In this document: positions 13,811 to 28,018 of the stretch, piece by piece
Layout of the letters: every line of letters begins with the position of its first letter
Numbering within the stretch: the stretch's first letter is position 1
Origin: a virus
IMG/VR virus record: IMGVR_UViG_3300021599_000358
Coordinates: 1-30,504 of that record
Length of the DNA stretch: 30,504 nt
Strand: one strand, 5' to 3'
Notes under the pieces: model-generated
Told to the model about the DNA's origin: nothing
Seen by the model: only the letters and a program-made list of their open reading frames with translations
Databases searched by the model: none
Made by a program: the position numbers and the translations under genes

Positions 13811-16051
13811 ATGCCATTTCCATATTTAGCACCGCTTTCACCTTGGTCAGTAGAGATTTTTGAAGAAAGAGAAAAACATAAACTAACTACGGTATATAAA
13901 CATCCTTGGATATGTTTAACATCATCTGCAAAAGTTGTTAATGCCGGAATTAAAGGGCAAACCGAAGAAGAGAGAGCTCAAGAAATAGATAAACTATTAA
14001 ACGGTGATATGTCTGGAGGAGGAAAGGTATATAATGGCTGTATTATAGCTAATAATATAGGAGCTGGTATGAGTAATACTATTCAAGAAAATAAAAATTT
14101 TTTACAACTTGGGGGTACAACTAATTTATCATATTCATTGGGAGCAACTCCTGTTGGAATTGATTTAGATGGTAAAATAATAACTGTAGAAGGAGAAACG
14201 GGAAGAAGAGTATCTACTCCAATAGTTGAAAGTATGGATTTAGATACCGATGGGGCAAACAATACATTAAAAACAGCTAAGATTAGTGTTAAATGTTTTA
14301 CACTAAAGCAGCTTGAAATGTTTGAGATGTTTTTTATGAAACCAGGTATAAATATATTGGTTGAGTTTGGCGATAATTATTTAGATATTAGAAAAAAATA
14401 TATTAAAGCAGATCCTAATGCACCAACTGAGCCAATCACACAAAAAGATGATAAAAATGCCTTTATAAATGGAACGCCAAAAGAATTTTCACCATATGAA
14501 AAAATAGAACAGGCATTAGTTAAAAAAAATGATTTCAAAGGATTTTGTCAAGACTTTTCAAAATACTTTAGATCCGATACAAATGCGATTGGTGAGTATC
14601 TACAAACGGTTAGACAATCGTTTGGTTCATATGATAGGGTTGCTGGAAAAGTTTTAGATTATAATTTTAGTATAAATGATGATGGTACATATCAGGCACA
14701 ATTTGAGGTATCGCAGGGTAATCAACTATCAATGGCAATTCCACAAAAACCAACAACAACTAATTCACAAGCACAAACATCCGGCCCGGCTAAAGATGTT
14801 GAATTTAGAAATTTTGATACTATACTAACTGTAATGGCTTCCGATTTGAACCTAAATAAAACTGTTTTGGAAAGTATTATTAAAGATACGCCAACAGGTG
14901 ATACTACGGAGTGGTCGAATCATTTATTTAATTTTGTTAAAATAAATACTCAACAAAAAGATACAGCAGCATCCGATAAGGCATATGTATCTTTGAAATT
15001 TGTTTTAATGATTTTGATGAACTATATTGTTTATGGAAATGATCCTACAAAACGAGCATCAACATCATTTTTCAAATTAAATTTACCTGGATATAAAAAA
15101 GCGCTAACAGATCCGGATGATGAGGATAAATTGATTAGAATAATACCAGTAGAATCTAATAAAATGCTTATTTCATCGAATCAAGATATAATTTATCCAA
15201 GAAAAAACTTACCAACAGCCACAGCGGTTATAGATCCAGAAAATAAAGACGCCAAAATAATTACACTAACAACTGGATCGTTGGTAGATGGTAGAATTGA
15301 TGCAATAATAGACTTTGACACAATTCACGATACATTATTTTTACCAACCACATATTATAATGACTCAAAACAAGAACCCATTCAAAACATTACACCTGGT
15401 CAACCAATAGGAGATGCCTTACATATTTTTATTAACTATGCTAGAATAGTTGGGTTTTGGAAAAGAAGTTATACAAGAATGCAATTTCTTGATCAAGTAT
15501 TAAATTTAGTAAATGATAATAGCTATGGTTTATTTCATTTAGTTTTTGGAATACCAAAAGAAGACACTTATCCGGTTGTAATGAATCATAGATGGCAAAC
15601 TAACACAGTATTGGAACAAAACCAGCCGAAAAATTATAGGTTCAAACCAACAACAATAAATTCTATAGTCAAACAATTTAGCTTTAATTTTGAAATGAGT
15701 AATTTGGTAGCAGGAATGACAATATTCAATACTAGAAAAATGCTTGCCGAAAAAAGCTCAACCAAAGGCCAATTACCATTACCACCGAGCGCGTATAAGC
15801 TTGTTGAAAAATCAATGTTTGGTAACGCAGATGGATATTATACCTTAAATTATGTTGAGTATTTGAATTTACAAGAACTAGATAAAAAAAGAAAAGAAGA
15901 GGAGGCCGCGGGAGTCAACTCAACACCTCCGCCGCCAGAAGATGCAACAAAAGAGCCGGTAGACTATGCTCAAATTATCAAAGATAAATGTGTTAATTTT
16001 ATTTTTAATGATGATCCTAAAAATCTAAAATCAATTAATACAATGGTATAG
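13811..16051 (+). CDS. Baseplate hub-like protein, main part
   Basis: This 746-residue protein follows the LysM gene at the place of the P2 hub gene D. An N-terminal segment reads as strands and turns. GSYDRVAGKVLDYNFSINDD near residues 268-287 is a beta hairpin motif common in tail hub proteins. The stretch after residue 400 is long, with helices and strands, and a Pro-rich linker (STPPPPEDATKEP) lies near residue 705. It ends at TAG soon after INTMV. The typical hub C-terminus, missing here, follows directly in another frame (to 16284), so the gene is either broken by a one-base loss or the sequence has an error. Function as a gp27/gpD-type hub is inferred from order and the C-terminal motif. 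No lysozyme domain is seen. Confidence 0.55.
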   Translation: MPFPYLAPLSPWSVEIFEEREKHKLTTVYKHPWICLTSSAKVVNAGIKGQTEEERAQEIDKLLNGDMSGGGKVYNGCIIANNIGAGMSNTIQENKNFLQLGGTTNLSYSLGATPVGIDLDGKIITVEGETGRRVSTPIVESMDLDTDGANNTLKTAKISVKCFTLKQLEMFEMFFMKPGINILVEFGDNYLDIRKKYIKADPNAPTEPITQKDDKNAFINGTPKEFSPYEKIEQALVKKNDFKGFCQDFSKYFRSDTNAIGEYLQTVRQSFGSYDRVAGKVLDYNFSINDDGTYQAQFEVSQGNQLSMAIPQKPTTTNSQAQTSGPAKDVEFRNFDTILTVMASDLNLNKTVLESIIKDTPTGDTTEWSNHLFNFVKINTQQKDTAASDKAYVSLKFVLMILMNYIVYGNDPTKRASTSFFKLNLPGYKKALTDPDDEDKLIRIIPVESNKMLISSNQDIIYPRKNLPTATAVIDPENKDAKIITLTTGSLVDGRIDAIIDFDTIHDTLFLPTTYYNDSKQEPIQNITPGQPIGDALHIFINYARIVGFWKRSYTRMQFLDQVLNLVNDNSYGLFHLVFGIPKEDTYPVVMNHRWQTNTVLEQNQPKNYRFKPTTINSIVKQFSFNFEMSNLVAGMTIFNTRKMLAEKSSTKGQLPLPPSAYKLVEKSMFGNADGYYTLNYVEYLNLQELDKKRKEEEAAGVNSTPPPPEDATKEPVDYAQIIKDKCVNFIFNDDPKNLKSINTMV

Positions 16052-16284
16052 GTAAAGAAAGAGAAAAATCAAAATCGGTTGTATCACCATTGACGGTATC
16101 ATTGACTATAGATGGGTTTAGCGGACTTAGTCCTGGTCAATACTTTAACATAGATGGTGTTCCTGAAATATATAATAAAATAGGCGTATTTCAAATTACA
16201 AATACCAAACATAGTGTATCAAACGATGGTTGGACAACTTCAATAGAAGCAGATCATAGAATAGTGAACAAGAATAAAAAATAA
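16039..16284 (+). CDS. Displaced C-terminal end of the hub-like protein
   Basis: This frame is open from 16039 and contains KSKSVVSPLTVSLTIDGFSG, then LSPGQYFNIDGVPEIY, VFQITNTKHSVS and GWTTSIEADHR. This is the familiar last domain of tail hub and tube-like proteins (a Pro, a strand with TIDG, G-Q-x-F, then F-x-I-x-N-x-x-H and W-x-T). There is no good start codon of its own: the first candidate is TTG at 16090, inside the domain. It lies in the -1 frame relative to the upstream gene, and restoring one base near the TAG at 16049-16051 would join them as ...INTMV-x-GKEREK. I read the two as one gene. Confidence 0.7.
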   Translation, partial: YNGIGKEREKSKSVVSPLTVSLTIDGFSGLSPGQYFNIDGVPEIYNKIGVFQITNTKHSVSNDGWTTSIEADHRIVNKNKK

Positions 16285-16710: not shown

Positions 16711-17982
16711 ATGAACTTGATTGAAAATATAGAAACATTAGTAGAATTTATTAAATCTAAGCCGGTCTTAACACTTCTTATACCGGTTTGGAGTTCACAC
16801 AAAGCGCATGAGTGTGGTACTGATATATCATTTATATATTGGAGAACTGCCGACTCTGATGGTATAATCAATTTCAAACACATAGATGCCAACGGAGTCG
16901 CAATGTTTCCAATACACCGATTGTGTAACCAGAATACATTGGTATTAGGAAATCGCTATATAGATACAATAGGACTAGATTATGAGTGGGTTTACTTCGA
17001 AGAGTATGGAACACCATTTGTATTTAATGAGTTCGTAGAATCGGTTTATAGAGGTTATAGGAGGGATTTTAACGAACTTAATGATTGCATTCCACTAACG
17101 AAATGGTATGAAGTATTAGGTACAATCCCTGATATTGGAACTCGACAAGAATGGTATCGTAATTATTCAGACTCCATTACCGAATTAGGAAAATTAGAGG
17201 GGGCTGGGGTGAAAGTCGTAGAGGAAAAATTTATTGATAAGTTTGGCTTCAATCCAGCATACATAACAAGCGGCATCGTATATCCAAAATACAATCCATA
17301 CACAACGACAGGTAGACCTACAAATCGTCATCTCAATGTAAACTGGTCCGCAATGCCTAAAACCGATGGGGGTAGGCAATCAATCGTATCTCGCTTTACG
17401 GGGGGAACTCTATTGGCATTTGATTGGGAATCGTATCACATTCGTCTTATTGGGCGGCTCGTTGGTTACGACTTCCCTACGGATAAAACGGCACACCAAC
17501 ACCTTGCGGAGTGGTACGGGCCGGGTGTTACCTACGATGAAGCAAAAGGGATAACATTCCGTTATCTTTATGGTGGTTGGGATGAGACCAGTGACCGGAT
17601 TCCGTTTTTCGCAAAGGTGAGGGAATATATCCGTGAGGGGTATAAACGATTCATAGTAACGGGTGGCTTAACGACACCAATCTTCGGTCGACGTATCCCT
17701 TTCCAAAGGATAGAAGCGCCGAATGAGGGTAAGGTGTTTAACTACTTATTACAATCCCTTGAAACGGAAATCAATTATCGTAAGATTAGGGAAATAAATC
17801 AGGCCCTTGCCGACATGGAATCCTGCCCTACACTTTATACATACGATTCCATACTGATTGATACACATCCGGCTGAAAGGGATAGTGTGTTGAGAACGAT
17901 ACGCACCATTATGGAAAGGGGTGGGTTTCCCGTCCGAGCGTATGAGGGAAGTAATTACGAAGATTTAGTCTTATTATCTTAA
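16711..17982 (+). CDS. Compact family A DNA polymerase
   Basis: The 423 residues carry the polymerase palm and fingers motifs in order. TTGRPTN and R-Q-S-I lie just before motif A, whose Asp is D238 in LAFDWESYH. Motif B has K279 and Y287-G288 (EAKGITFRYLYGG). A T-x-x-x-GRR block follows, then a FNYLLQSLE helix, and motif C with D379 (YTYDSILID). The two catalytic Asp are present, but the HDE of motif C is YDS. About 200 N-terminal residues are divergent, and the protein is much shorter than Pol I, with no recognisable proofreading motifs. It probably replicates phage DNA with the helicase, SSB and nuclease genes encoded further right. T4 itself uses a family B enzyme. The gene sits alone between virion genes and has clearly higher GC in its second half, which suggests later acquisition. 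Confidence 0.85.
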   Translation: MNLIENIETLVEFIKSKPVLTLLIPVWSSHKAHECGTDISFIYWRTADSDGIINFKHIDANGVAMFPIHRLCNQNTLVLGNRYIDTIGLDYEWVYFEEYGTPFVFNEFVESVYRGYRRDFNELNDCIPLTKWYEVLGTIPDIGTRQEWYRNYSDSITELGKLEGAGVKVVEEKFIDKFGFNPAYITSGIVYPKYNPYTTTGRPTNRHLNVNWSAMPKTDGGRQSIVSRFTGGTLLAFDWESYHIRLIGRLVGYDFPTDKTAHQHLAEWYGPGVTYDEAKGITFRYLYGGWDETSDRIPFFAKVREYIREGYKRFIVTGGLTTPIFGRRIPFQRIEAPNEGKVFNYLLQSLETEINYRKIREINQALADMESCPTLYTYDSILIDTHPAERDSVLRTIRTIMERGGFPVRAYEGSNYEDLVLLS

Positions 17983-18047: not shown

Positions 18048-18596
18048 ATGATACGATTAAAAGATTTATTAACCGAAGGTTATAATATGACAAAGCTCGG
18101 TGCTGATTTGGAAAGTTGGGCAAAGAAAAACGGTCTTAATTTCAAAAAGGTATCTTCTAAAAAGCAACCTGGCCCGTATGGTTCTTCTATATCCAATACT
18201 TTTTATCAAATTGGAGATAAATACGCTTTGGTAAGATATGAAACCGTAACCGGTGCTCCAAGATTAAACCAATTAAGATTTGCCATTTTCGATAAGCCCG
18301 ATTTGGCATCCAAAGCAACTTCCGTTCAAAACTATGTAGATGATTTTGGATATGTAGAGCAGGCACTTGAAAAAGCCGGACTTAAAGGTGGTAAAGAGGC
18401 TACAAAGTGGACTAAAGGGACGATTGACAAATTTGTAAAAGATTTGGGCAAAGATAAGAAGTATAATAAATTTACAGATGCTCAAGCCGGTGATATGGCA
18501 CAATCAGTATTGGATGATAACGAAGGACTAGAGCAAGCAATAAAAACAATATACAGAGTAAGAGATGCTGCCGGATGGTTAGCAGATAAGATGTAA
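18048..18596 (+). CDS. Unknown, possible prohead-processed protein A
   Basis: The 182-residue protein is not recognised. It begins MIRLKDLLTEG, nearly the same leader as the next gene (MIKLKSLLKES), with an L-T-E at residues 8-10 that fits the L/I-x-E cleavage rule of T4-type prohead proteases. The rest is mixed alpha/beta and basic, with a QPGPYGSSISNTFYQIGD segment near residues 40-57 and a helical second half. It ends 3 nt before the next gene, so the two are translationally linked. If the N-terminal match is meaningful, the protein enters the prohead and is cut to begin at Gly11. That is an inference; a plain cytoplasmic role cannot be excluded. Confidence 0.6.
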   Translation: MIRLKDLLTEGYNMTKLGADLESWAKKNGLNFKKVSSKKQPGPYGSSISNTFYQIGDKYALVRYETVTGAPRLNQLRFAIFDKPDLASKATSVQNYVDDFGYVEQALEKAGLKGGKEATKWTKGTIDKFVKDLGKDKKYNKFTDAQAGDMAQSVLDDNEGLEQAIKTIYRVRDAAGWLADKM

Positions 18597-18599
18597 AAT

Positions 18600-19355
18600 A
18601 TGATAAAACTAAAATCATTATTAAAAGAATCTCTACTTACCGAATTAGAGTTTGGTACACAAGATGCATTCGATGATTACCAAAAAAATCACGATATGCG
18701 TGCTGATACGCAAGTAACTGTAGCAGGTAAGAAGATGAGTGTTGGACAGGCTGCAAAACAATCAAAAGACCCTGCAGTTAATAAGATTAAAGGTACTGCC
18801 GTATTTGGTAAGAAAAAAAATTATGCTGTAACTTTTGGCGATGCTGATAGTGATGCGGCCCGATCCATATATGATAAAGAGATTGATAAAGCTAAAAAAG
18901 CAGGAAGAGATTTTAGTAAAGACCCATTTCCAGATTTTGGATCTGATGCTTGGAAAACAATGCACTCTAATATGAGGAGAAACGCCGCAGAAAAAAATCC
19001 TGGTTATCAAAAAATAAAAGGAATGGCTGATAAGTTCAAATCAATGGGTTACGAAGAAAGTGAAGTTGGGTATGGAGATTATGGAAGTGCTCTTGTTGGT
19101 AAAAGTTTTGGAAAAAAAGATGATGAAGGTAATCAAATTGACATATATATGATGCCAACAAAAGATGGTAACATTGAGGTAACTAGTACTAAACGAATTG
19201 AATCCGAAAAGAAACGTGGCGGACTTATGGGATTGATGGGTAAAAAAGATAAAAATGTACAGTATAAAGATACTGAAAGAGAAGTAATTGATATAAGTGG
19301 CAAAAGTGATGATGAAGTAGTTGATGCAATAACAAAGCATGTTAGCAAATTATAA
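18600..19355 (+). CDS. Unknown, possible prohead-processed protein B
   Basis: The 251-residue Lys-rich protein is not recognised. Its leader MIKLKSLLKESLLTELEF holds two L-x-E sites (residues 8-10 and 13-15). Directly after comes a module with Q-D-A-F-D-D-Y, K-N-H-D-M-R-x-D-T-Q-V and V-A-G-K (residues 20-45), which is paralogous to residues 40-68 of the next gene's product. The middle is charged helix, and residues 140-190 read as a small beta domain. A Lys/Gly-rich loop (KRGGLMGLMGKKDKN) precedes the final helix. High Lys content fits a DNA-associated internal protein. The function is unknown. Confidence 0.6.
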   Translation: MIKLKSLLKESLLTELEFGTQDAFDDYQKNHDMRADTQVTVAGKKMSVGQAAKQSKDPAVNKIKGTAVFGKKKNYAVTFGDADSDAARSIYDKEIDKAKKAGRDFSKDPFPDFGSDAWKTMHSNMRRNAAEKNPGYQKIKGMADKFKSMGYEESEVGYGDYGSALVGKSFGKKDDEGNQIDIYMMPTKDGNIEVTSTKRIESEKKRGGLMGLMGKKDKNVQYKDTEREVIDISGKSDDEVVDAITKHVSKL

Positions 19356-19364
19356 AACAAAAAG

Positions 19365-20156
19365 ATGAAAAAGACTCTATTACAAGAAATTAAAGCAATG
19401 AATAAAATTGCCGGAACAGAAATGACGGTAGAGCAGGAGATTGCGTTCATTAAGAATAGATTACAAGAGTTGGAGTTTACACATCAGGCTTCATTTGATG
19501 CTTATAGAAAGAATCACAAAATGAGACCTGATACAAGGGTGAAGATAGCAGGTAAGGAAACAACTGTTAAAGATGCATCAAAAGAAAAAAGTTTATTACA
19601 AAAAATAGGTGCAAAACTATTTGGTAAAAAAGAAGAGCCTGTTCCAATGCCAAAAGTAGACCCAAAGAGTCCATTGAATAAGATTATGGTATGGGATGAT
19701 AAACGTGGTTCACATGTAACAATCGGCAAAGCTCTACAAAACCCAGACAGATACAAACACTTGGCAGCAGATATACAATCAATGGTTGATATTGATCCGA
19801 AAGGTACTAAAGCTCAAAAATATCTAGATAAGAAAAAACAAAGAAGAAAGGATGCCGAAGCAGAGCGTAAAGCGTTTAATAAAAAAGAAGCGGATCGTAA
19901 GAAGTGGAGAGAGGAAAACCCTGAATTAGCAAAGAAGCAAGATGCTGAAGCAGAAAAATTAAGACAACAAGCAAGCGCTGAAAGAAGAAAACGTGATGGA
20001 GCTGGTGATGATGATTATTTGGGACGTGATAGTTCAAACTACTGGAAGTCCTCTAATCCAGTTTATCTTCCGTGGGATGATGATGATAAGGATAAAGGAT
20101 TTGGTGGTTTCGGTGGAGGTAGTTTCGGCGGCGGAGGAGCAGGTGGTAGTTGGTAA
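19365..20156 (+). CDS. Unknown, possible prohead-processed protein C
   Basis: The 263-residue protein starts MKKTLLQEIKAMN and carries LQELEF at residues 33-38, followed by the module shared with the previous gene (FDAYRKNHKMRPDTRVKIAGK, positions about 43-63). Residues 150-215 are a very charged Lys/Arg/Glu/Ala helix, probably coiled. The end switches to an acidic patch and then a glycine-rich tail (GFGGFGGGSFGGGGAGGSW). Such a mix of basic helix and flexible tail fits a DNA-binding or structural internal protein, but no enzyme motif is visible. It starts 9 nt after the previous gene. The shared module suggests an ancient duplication. Confidence 0.6.
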   Translation: MKKTLLQEIKAMNKIAGTEMTVEQEIAFIKNRLQELEFTHQASFDAYRKNHKMRPDTRVKIAGKETTVKDASKEKSLLQKIGAKLFGKKEEPVPMPKVDPKSPLNKIMVWDDKRGSHVTIGKALQNPDRYKHLAADIQSMVDIDPKGTKAQKYLDKKKQRRKDAEAERKAFNKKEADRKKWREENPELAKKQDAEAEKLRQQASAERRKRDGAGDDDYLGRDSSNYWKSSNPVYLPWDDDDKDKGFGGFGGGSFGGGGAGGSW

Positions 20157-20165
20157 ACATTTATA
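20156..20165 (+). promoter_or_regulatory. Weak copy of the late motif
   Basis: AACATTTATA begins at the last base of the preceding stop codon and ends 21 nt before the ATG of the 732-residue gene. It has two mismatches to TATATTTATA, one of them in the otherwise invariant ATATTTATA core. Confidence 0.25.
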
Positions 20166-20186
20166 TTATTAAAAATAAACAAAAAT

Positions 20187-22385
20187 ATGAACATAGATTT
20201 TCAAGAAATTCTTAAAGAGTTAGAATTTAGAGTACCAAAAGGTATAATAAACCTAAACGAAGAACAACAGGTTACAACATTAGTCGAAATACTTCGTGAG
20301 AATGGAGTTCCCGATGCTAATGAATTTGCTCAAAGGGCAAGAGTGATATTTGGATATGTGAGTGAAGCTAATAAAAAGAAAGCATCTACTAAAAAAATAG
20401 GAACAAAATTTCCCGCATTTAGTAAAGATGGTGAAAAGCTTGTTTATTTCAAAACAAAGGCTTCATTAGATACTGCTCTAAAACAAGGCTCACATATAAC
20501 TCCAAAACAAAAAGAGGATAACGATAAGAAGAAATCTGTATCAAAAACGGACAAAAAGCAAGAACCAAAACAATTAGGCGGGATTGAATTGGTAGGTGGT
20601 GCTGAAAAAAGAAAATCTAGAAAACAACAAAAACCAACATCTTTTGATGATAGAATTGATAGTAAAGTTTCGCAAAACTTGCAAAAAACATATAATACAG
20701 ACCCACAATTTTCACAAGCAGGAGATGAATATCCAACGCATAAAGACAGGTTAAAATTATTAGAAAGTAAAAAAGTACCAAAAATAAAAAATGTAAATGT
20801 AACCGAAGATGATGTGTATAAAGCATTGGGAATTAAAAAAGGAGAATGTAAATTTCCTTCAAAATATGTATCGGTTATGGCATTAGCATTGACACACGCG
20901 AAGGGAAAATATACAATAACCGATTTAACAGATGCAGCGGGTGCGGGTACTCTTGATTCTACTCTTGGTGAACTAATGGTACTGATTGGTTCAACTATAG
21001 AAGACGAAAAATCAAGAGCAAATTTCTATAACTATTTAAGAGATAATGTTGCAAAAGGTGGAAATCAATCGCCAATTACAAGAGACTGGATTGATGCAGC
21101 TGAAGAATCATGTAAAGCTTTCAATAAAAAATTAGGAAGAAAATGCGGCGGAGGTTATAGTGTTCAGGGAAACTTTTGGGATATTGAAAAGGAAGCAGCC
21201 GGGGCTGGAATTAAAAACTATAAGAGAGATAAGGGAAAATCTACGGATATAAATACTTTGGTAAATTGTACATCAAAAGATGGTAAAACTACTCAAATAT
21301 GGCAACAACCATCATTGAAGAAAAGTAAGGATGTAAATGCTATGAATGCAACAACATCAAGGGTATTTTCGGTAACACTTAATAGATATGGTTCAAAAGC
21401 AGAAAAAAAATTATATGAGGACAGTGGTGATGAAATTGATACTTACAAAGGACTTGATAAAAAAATGATTGTAAAGGTAAAATCAGCTGATGGTAGTGTC
21501 AAAGATATGACTGTAGAAAATAGAGTTCGTGAATTAAATGCGACAATGAAGAACTTGGAACGTAAATACGCAGATAAAATACCAAAATCTGCTAATCCTG
21601 AATATGCAGCAAAAATACAAAAACAATTACATGATAAATTATTAAACGATGTCGATGCAAATAAGGAATTAAATAAATTTTTTACAAATTGGCAATCAAT
21701 GAAGAATAATGAAAAGATGGAATTGGCCCAAAAAATATCAAAAAAATATCTATCGCAAAAGGGCGATGCATATGGTGAGCAATTAAAAAATATGTTTGAT
21801 AGAATGTCTGAATATGAAATGAACACACCCGAAAAGTTTAATGAAGTTTTAGATTATATGGAATTGCCGCCAAAAGAAAAATCTAAGCTTATGGTAGCTT
21901 CTATGAATGCTGTTTCTCTTACTAATGAGGGTAAAGAAACTGTTTGTGGTGATTATAAGAAAAAATTACTGAAAAATTCACATGGTCATTCGGAAGCCGT
22001 TTTGAAATATCTTATAGAAGATGATGAAAATAAGAACGCTCTTTTAGAAAATATATCAAAAACATTTCCATTAAAAGAATTGATGGAAGGTAAAGAGTGG
22101 GCAATACTTGGTGAAAAAGGAGGAGGTATAAATTTAGATACAGATACTATAACTAAATGTTTGGGTACAGCCAAATACGAAGATGTTGTTGAAAAATTAC
22201 AAATAGTACCTTATGGAGATAAAAAAGAACCAACACTTGTTTATTCCGCCGATAATGGTAAAAGGAATATACCTATAAGTAAGATAAATTGTAGACCCGA
22301 TGGTATTATGTATGGTACTGGTTGGAAATTAGAAATGGATATTCACGATGGGTTTGCAGCCTGTTGTAAATCACACGATGTATAA
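20187..22385 (+). CDS. Large unknown, possible packaged or ejected protein D
   Basis: The 732-residue protein is not recognised. It begins MNIDFQEILKELEF, with the same L-x-E-L-E-F motif as the two genes before it, at residues 9-14. Residues 60-180 are Lys/Gln-rich and look disordered. From about 200 to 400 it is a folded-looking domain with AFNKKLGRKCGGGYSVQGNF and several Cys. A helical middle follows (about 440-580). The last 150 residues are mixed alpha/beta and end in a His/Cys-rich HDGFAACCKSHDV. I see no enzyme motif I trust. The size, the shared N-terminus and the position at the end of the virion block suggest an internal head protein delivered with the DNA. The Cys/His end could bind metal. 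Both ideas are inference. Confidence 0.6.
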   Translation: MNIDFQEILKELEFRVPKGIINLNEEQQVTTLVEILRENGVPDANEFAQRARVIFGYVSEANKKKASTKKIGTKFPAFSKDGEKLVYFKTKASLDTALKQGSHITPKQKEDNDKKKSVSKTDKKQEPKQLGGIELVGGAEKRKSRKQQKPTSFDDRIDSKVSQNLQKTYNTDPQFSQAGDEYPTHKDRLKLLESKKVPKIKNVNVTEDDVYKALGIKKGECKFPSKYVSVMALALTHAKGKYTITDLTDAAGAGTLDSTLGELMVLIGSTIEDEKSRANFYNYLRDNVAKGGNQSPITRDWIDAAEESCKAFNKKLGRKCGGGYSVQGNFWDIEKEAAGAGIKNYKRDKGKSTDINTLVNCTSKDGKTTQIWQQPSLKKSKDVNAMNATTSRVFSVTLNRYGSKAEKKLYEDSGDEIDTYKGLDKKMIVKVKSADGSVKDMTVENRVRELNATMKNLERKYADKIPKSANPEYAAKIQKQLHDKLLNDVDANKELNKFFTNWQSMKNNEKMELAQKISKKYLSQKGDAYGEQLKNMFDRMSEYEMNTPEKFNEVLDYMELPPKEKSKLMVASMNAVSLTNEGKETVCGDYKKKLLKNSHGHSEAVLKYLIEDDENKNALLENISKTFPLKELMEGKEWAILGEKGGGINLDTDTITKCLGTAKYEDVVEKLQIVPYGDKKEPTLVYSADNGKRNIPISKINCRPDGIMYGTGWKLEMDIHDGFAACCKSHDV

Positions 22386-22396
22386 ATTTAATACAA

Positions 22397-22795
22397 ATGA
22401 ACACACAACTACTTTGCTTGTTTACAACGAAAGAGGAGCTTGATAAAACGCTAGATTTCATAGTATCTAATTATGAGATAATAAATCCTAATGTCTTTAT
22501 TTTGGAAAGCAAGGTAAGACCTGAAGAATTGTTCGTTACTTTTAATGTTGAAAAGGGGTCTCAACCTGTAAGTTCCCAATGGAAAACTATACTCGTTCAT
22601 AGGAAAAAGCAAACTAATACAATATACACAATAAACGCCCTAAACGAAGTTGTAAAATCTATGACCGGTGGGCAAATGGATAATTCATTTGTAATTGATT
22701 GGGAAGAATTTAGGAATTGTATCTTATCTACTTCAAATTCATCTTACAAAAAAATTCCTACAAAAATATACAAAACATTAAATTTGGAAAATTAA
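22397..22795 (+). CDS. Unknown small protein upstream of a promoter
   Basis: The 132-residue protein is not recognised. It reads as a small alpha/beta fold: TTKEELDKTLDFIVSNYEI helix, then VFILESK and LFVTFNVE strands, an SSQWKTILVHRK strand, and helices with LNEVVKSMTGG and WEEFRNCIL. It starts 11 nt after the previous gene and could be the last gene of the late block. Its 3' end runs into the promoter of the next gene. Confidence 0.55.
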   Translation: MNTQLLCLFTTKEELDKTLDFIVSNYEIINPNVFILESKVRPEELFVTFNVEKGSQPVSSQWKTILVHRKKQTNTIYTINALNEVVKSMTGGQMDNSFVIDWEEFRNCILSTSNSSYKKIPTKIYKTLNLEN

Positions 22796-27712: not shown

Positions 27713-28018
27713 ATGGCACAAGACAGAGTAGCAAAACCGATTGGAGATAGAGTTCTCCTTACGGAAATTGAAACAAAAGAAGAAACAGTCGGTGGAATTA
27801 TTATCCCAGACTCAGTAAGACAAGAGGATGTAAAACGAGCTATCGTAGAATCCGTAGGACCAGGCATTTATACCCAAAGTGGTACATTGATTCCTATGAG
27901 TGTAAAGGTAGGCGATGAAGTTATACTTCCCCCATACCACCAGGGACAAGAAATAAAAATTGGTGGTAATAAATATACTCTATTAAGAGAGTCGGAAATA
28001 CTAATGATTATTAAATAA
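27713..28018 (+). CDS. GroES-type co-chaperonin (role of T4 gp31)
   Basis: The 101 residues are a complete Cpn10: KPIGDRVLLTEIETKEE, the mobile loop and hydrophobic GroEL-binding tripeptide in VGGIIIPDS (residues 27-35), VESVGPGI, VKVGDEVILPPYHQGQEI, and the final YTLLRESEILMII strand. It caps the host GroEL. T4 encodes gp31 for the same purpose, to fold its major capsid protein, but gp31 is very divergent, whereas this one looks like a bacterial GroES and may derive from a host. It starts 10 nt after the Mom-like gene. Confidence 0.95.
   Translation: MAQDRVAKPIGDRVLLTEIETKEETVGGIIIPDSVRQEDVKRAIVESVGPGIYTQSGTLIPMSVKVGDEVILPPYHQGQEIKIGGNKYTLLRESEILMIIK

Follow-up and report, generated by a model that had tools for sequence, protein, structure and literature searches.

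The internal head proteins IPI-IPIII of phage T4 bear capsid-targeting sequences that are cut by the protease gp21 (PMC9026906), an enzyme with a site of its own at LIE-9 (PMC9026906). The T4 Alt protein is a packaged effector that undergoes both N- and C-terminal processing (PMC9026906). Inner head proteins of SPN3US and phiKZ have long N-terminal propeptides with an inferred function like that of capsid-targeting sequences (PMC5694885). Capsid-targeting leaders and long propeptides are already known (PMC9026906, PMC5694885), and the loading of varied proteins by T4-like phages via such leaders has been suggested before; for T4-like phages from metagenomes, the literature yielded no paper on capsid-targeting sequences. 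The fast evolution of their bodies makes injected phage proteins difficult to recognise. The locus described here is new in that its leaders fall into four classes, that one leader is a folded unit of 60 residues behind which large cargoes are interchangeable, and that the cargo genes form a syntenic island in a lineage that is uncultured.

The window, meaning the whole stretch of DNA that was analysed, is a 30,504-base virus fragment of T4-like type that includes tail sheath, tube, baseplate, tape measure, SSB, and UvsX genes and no head genes. Four of its genes, P1 to P4 (Table 1), very probably encode proteins whose N-termini are removable tags that place them in the head, from which injection is possible. 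In nine fully listed relatives (all relatives were drawn from IMG/VR), the place of P1-P4 is taken by a cassette that varies in composition and comprises between two and five genes with leaders. The cassette is followed 3' by the MNTQLLCLFT gene and, where the locus extends far enough, preceded 5' by the short PolA-like gene. The protein encoded by this last gene in the window has 423 residues and a weak similarity to DNA_pol_A; phage immuto has a PolA gene of similar size in addition to a full-length one. A search for the T4 late-promoter box found 11 copies against 6.8 expected, an unconvincing enrichment.

Table 1. Features of the leader-bearing gene island and its flanks (window positions).
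Feature	Coordinates	Strand	Basis
Short PolA-like gene (left flank of island)	16711..17982	+	phrog_17 DNA polymerase match 4e-12; synteny
P1, 182 aa, candidate internal head protein, mature pI 9.3	18048..18596	+	ORF; five homologs with same leader
P1 leader MIRLKDLLTE, predicted cut after E10	18048..18077	+	class I; shared with the gp21-adjacent gene of relatives
P2, 251 aa, candidate internal head protein, mature pI 8.7	18600..19355	+	ORF; homologs with class II, IV leaders
P2 leader MIKLKSLLKE-SLLTE, predicted cuts after E10 and/or E15	18600..18644	+	class I
P3, 263 aa, candidate internal head protein, mature pI 9.6	19365..20156	+	ORF; homologs
P3 leader, 35 residues, L-x-E at 6-8 and 33-35, predicted cut after E35	19365..19469	+	class IV
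P4, 732 aa, leader domain, linker, and large cargo, mature pI 9.2	20187..22385	+	ORF; relatives
P4 leader domain, residues 1-60, predicted main cut VSE60|A	20187..20366	+	AlphaFold; relatives
P4 linker, residues 61-181, predicted disordered	20367..20729	+	pLDDT below 50
P4 cargo, residues 185-732	20739..22382	+	AlphaFold; invariant columns in 26 relatives
MNTQLLCLFT gene, conserved (right flank of island)	22397..22795	+	synteny, nine relatives

The leaders of P1 and P2 resemble those of T4 IPI-IPIII, being ten residues long, hydrophobic at positions 4 and 7, and provided with an L/I-x-E at 8-10. That of P1, with hydrophobic residues at 4, 7, and 8 and with E10, is in register with MKTYQEFIAE of IPII and IPIII, and so is that of P2; the five P1 homologs share the P1 leader with L/V-x-E at 8-10. 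The likeness extends to the basic mature bodies (pI 8.7-9.6 for P1-P4), to the occurrence of one leader on different bodies, and to a protease of the gp21 family, found here in relatives. T4 IP leaders span 10-19 residues, a range that P1 and P2 fit; the leaders of P3 (35 residues) and P4 (60) are longer, and T4 gp23 has one of 65. For T4 IPIII, an E-to-D change is reported to prevent cutting while packaging continues. The locus also differs from the T4 system in that its bodies are unrelated to IPI-IPIII, its leaders fall into four classes (two of them longer), its cargo is larger, and packaging is something that we infer. The bodies of P1-P4 matched no Pfam, PHROG, or PDB family, and it is in this sense that the earlier note's "types not described so far" holds. 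They are not four independent types: P2 and P3 are homologous over some 45 residues past the L-x-E site, and the bodies of P1 and P4 are unlike those of P2 and P3. Pfam and PHROG searches with P1-P4 and with ten relatives of P4 were uninformative, except for one HNH-like cargo type (L078), and P1-P4 matched no ADP-ribosyltransferase family.

L-x-E near all four starts, as first noticed (P1 8-10, P2 13-15, P3 33-35, P4 9-11), is confirmed, and further L/I-x-E sites lie at residues 6-8 of P3 and 8-10 of P2. The L-E-F said to follow the site in three proteins is present at P2-15, P3-35, and P4-11, but these are not three independent cases: the shared LEF of P2 and P3 counts as one event because the two proteins are homologous after the site. 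The LEF of P4 was considered as the same element and rejected, as it belongs to an ELEFRV/ELSYRV domain. The observation that two leaders are near copies (MIRLKDLLTE, MIKLKSLLKE) stands, with six identities within residues 2-10; a pair as good arose among 27 random internal 9-mers in 0.07% of trials (P about 0.0007), which is beyond chance. An [LI]xE lies within the first 12 residues of all four proteins, compared with 5 of 23 other window genes (Fisher P=0.007) and a background of 13% of 689 genes in four relatives. Extended to the first 35 residues, the comparison (4/4 versus 12/23 other window genes, P=0.10) is not significant, so that LQE at 33-35 of P3 is unremarkable by itself; in relatives, some 40% of genes contain [LI]xE within that span. 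A positional count of L/I-x-E in four relatives showed no clear N-terminal peak genome-wide, and the bare motif is therefore unusable as a signal.

Four leader classes were defined among 2,460 predicted proteins: class I, MI[RK]LK[DSN]LLxE (20 proteins, with about ten unrelated body clusters); class II, M[KR]LV[ND]L[IVM]PLxE (64 proteins); class III, the P4 domain (84 proteins); and class IV, MKKxLLxE... (10 proteins). These counts describe rather than test, because the patterns were written after examples had been seen. A more independent check is where homology begins in full-length alignments of proteins with different leaders. The starting point is the L of L-x-E for 278 of 312 class II-IV pairs and for all 40 class I-II pairs, and it lies between -8 and +3 of the E for class I-III pairs, although the pairs are not independent because many of the proteins are closely related. 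For P2, homology to proteins with other leaders starts at the second site, L13-x-E15, and for P3, homology to class II proteins likewise begins at the second site (33-35); both P3 sites are kept in relatives L026, L126, and L127. The body EDVVKNKKTGNVYVVK stands directly behind MIKLKDLLKE in one gene and behind YFSYLTE or YFSYINE in another.

Two isolates, Flavobacterium phage immuto and Microcystis phage Mel-JY01, also have candidate leaders, and for neither of them was a virion proteome found in the literature. The proteins with such starts include YP_010114600, YP_010114601, YP_010114452, and YP_010114453 of immuto and WWT39342 and WWT39336 of Mel-JY01. Adjacent Mel-JY01 genes (L206 10277-11106) start with MIKLKSLLQE and MIKLKSLLKE and continue with the same IISDRVWHLTT body, the longer of the two having no Pfam match. 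In one relative (L070 2032-4488), two P2-family proteins are fused in a single 818-aa frame, each with its own MKLVNLIPLKE|IDF leader, and the internal leader, if cut, would give two mature proteins. This protein and another of the P2 family (L028 1068-2321) end in a KLKSLL/KLKSLI-like tail that resembles the class I leader and is perhaps, by analogy with T4 Alt, a C-terminal propeptide.

P4 combines three regions. In the AlphaFold model (mean pLDDT 69), residues 1-59 form a helical domain with pLDDT mostly 78-92, disorder extends from about residue 60 to 181, and the remainder is folded. Modelled in this way, its architecture is that expected of a removable propeptide and a cargo. The leader has a mean column identity of 64%, versus 22% for the whole protein. 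Although the L-x-E at 9-11, which the earlier note had taken as the P4 site, is conserved, the main site is probably at residues 58-60. In an alignment of 77 relatives of at least 400 aa, selected by and aligned on a site near residue 60, E60 is present in 77/77, a result that, like the hydrophobic residue 58, is partly due to the site-based selection. Features outside the selection are the near-constant position of the site, the free choice of residue 59 (N, T, K, S, D), and the A that directly follows E60 in 50 of the 77. In the unselected list of P4-type proteins, 8 of 89 are without a recognised site at 60. The last 300 residues of P4 relatives fall into six clusters with no detectable mutual similarity.

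A parallel to the P4 leader is the T4 gp23 propeptide (65 residues, ending FLTE|A), since the 60 residues of P4 end in YVSE|A and those of relatives in YLNE|A or YINE|A; P4 differs in that it is not a capsid protein, and no sequence homology is claimed. The propeptides of SPN3US and phiKZ, in contrast, have 79-161 residues and other cleavage motifs (AxE, SxE). Searches with P4 gave no match in INPHARED phages or GTDB genomes, a search with its domain model against the PDB gave nothing significant, and a fold search returned no PDB match and, in a viral library, only two uncultured-phage proteins.

A gp21-like protease, which the earlier note had proposed to look for, is found in relatives, and in one of them on the same contig as the island; the window fragment itself includes no head gene. 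Peptidase_S77/gp21 is encoded by all four relatives above 130 kb. The protease of one relative matches T4 gp21 (5jbl, 2.6e-17) and keeps GELDHP, SRGLGS, and the LLIET start of the T4 enzyme. The related 39-kb contig G021 has both a gp21-family protease and the island (L127), and its genes run in the order gp21, MAKLINLIPANQ..., MKLKDLLSE|A..., MIRLKDILKE|T..., one more gene, scaffold, capsid protein, neck, sheath, and tube. The same leaders as in the island recur in this way on unrelated bodies of head-cluster proteins beside gp21. The G021 scaffold starts with MANSKLLKE|A, and its capsid protein has ...AKQLLDE|A ahead of the first conserved segment. The capsid-protein site directly precedes the first segment that aligns with T4 gp23*, and it reads ISE|A in Mel-JY01 and VSE|A in immuto. 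A caution for P4 is that its favoured site has V rather than L or I; the capsid-protein sites of these two phages indicate that V-x-E is acceptable.

The sharing of leaders, the junctions at L-x-E, the gp21 genes of relatives, and the sites in scaffold and capsid protein can be read directly from the sequences. The targeting-peptide reading of the N-termini, strongly supported by the comparison with relatives, leads us to consider P1-P4, with good confidence, a variable island of T4-type leader-tagged internal head proteins that are cut by a gp21-like protease and probably ejected. By analogy with T4, the N-terminal capsid-targeting leader would dock each precursor to the assembling scaffold or core, and a gp21-type protease would cut after L/I(V)-x-E during head maturation, most likely after residue 10 in P1, 10 and/or 15 in P2, 35 (with 8 as a second site) in P3, and residue 60 in P4. 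The leader would be lost and the basic mature bodies would remain in the head with the DNA. They would probably be ejected into the host at infection, where they may have an early role such as counter-defence or takeover.

Other readings of the same N-termini differ in how well they accommodate these data. The leaders could be uncut modules that bind the scaffold or another partner and recombine among genes, with L-x-E marking a helix end or a recombination junction. Cleavage is here predicted from sequence, and P4 has a folded leader domain that would offer a natural fusion point at its edge, both of which suit such modules; yet unlike leaders of 10, 11, 35, and 60 residues all finish in [LIV]-x-E with a free middle residue, the relatives' capsid protein and scaffold carry [LIV]-x-E too, and relatives encode the protease. 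We regard this reading as unlikely. Somewhat less likely still is that P1-P4 belong to the neighbouring replication cluster as early proteins absent from the virion and that their N-termini reflect incidental paralogy. Their position directly upstream of the SSB and UvsX genes and the paralogy of P2 and P3 would fit, but the same leaders occur on unrelated bodies in the head cluster beside gp21, and P1 and P4 have no body in common with P2/P3. Coincidence is highly improbable: L-x-E is a common tripeptide, as its frequency in the first 35 residues of relatives' genes attests, but the similarity of the P1 and P2 leaders and the conservation across dozens of relatives contradict a chance origin.

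The P4 cargo class that includes the window's copy has invariant GAG...E, WD, GxSxD, and SxKK in its first part (26 sequences). Examined as a PD-(D/E)xK nuclease, it keeps E, D, and SxKK without exception across 26 relatives, but conservation is missing at the acidic residue that precedes xK; in the window copy, Q stands at a position where many relatives have E. The P4 cargo matched no PD-(D/E)xK nuclease by Pfam, PDB sequence, or PDB fold, and a nuclease role would be an idea from motifs only, as distinct from family, sequence, or fold. Other P4-type cargo classes contain HNH-like strings; the HNH-like type L078 matches a PHROG of unknown function and cyanophage hypothetical proteins, and the S-CRM01 copy bears none of these leader classes. 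A Mel-JY01 protein that starts with MQFKQYILGE (L206 2406-3692) has an S-adenosylmethionine lyase match (4e-10, above the cut-off), and its gene lies immediately upstream of SSB and RecA. With its start resembling a capsid-targeting sequence, it is a candidate injected anti-restriction enzyme, a role that a lyase-like body of this kind would suit. A protein of another relative (L089 6951-7706) with the class I-like start MIKLKDLLNPPVLNE matches zeta toxin and AAA_33 and appears kinase-like. These two matches make it plausible that the cargoes of the island include injected counter-defence or takeover enzymes.

Since leader and cut site are conserved and the cargo changes, the leader may be used to search metagenomic T4-like viruses for injected effectors, and the 60-residue P4 leader might double as a packaging tag. 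More tentatively, T4-like viruses of uncultured aquatic bacteria might maintain an island dedicated to cargo, where recombination joins detachable packaging modules, among them a folded domain of 60 residues, to changing effectors that are loaded into the head and injected so as to act ahead of any phage gene expression.

Two further features of the window were observed. A baseplate-region ORF (13811-16284) encodes 746 aa and ends at 16051, its apparent C-terminus resuming in another frame at 16090-16284; the ORF is continuous in relatives L084 and L152, and the break is a frameshift, either genuine or an artefact of sequencing or assembly. Among the replication genes, positions 27713-28018 encode a 101-aa protein that, by the look of its sequence, is a candidate GroES-type co-chaperonin.
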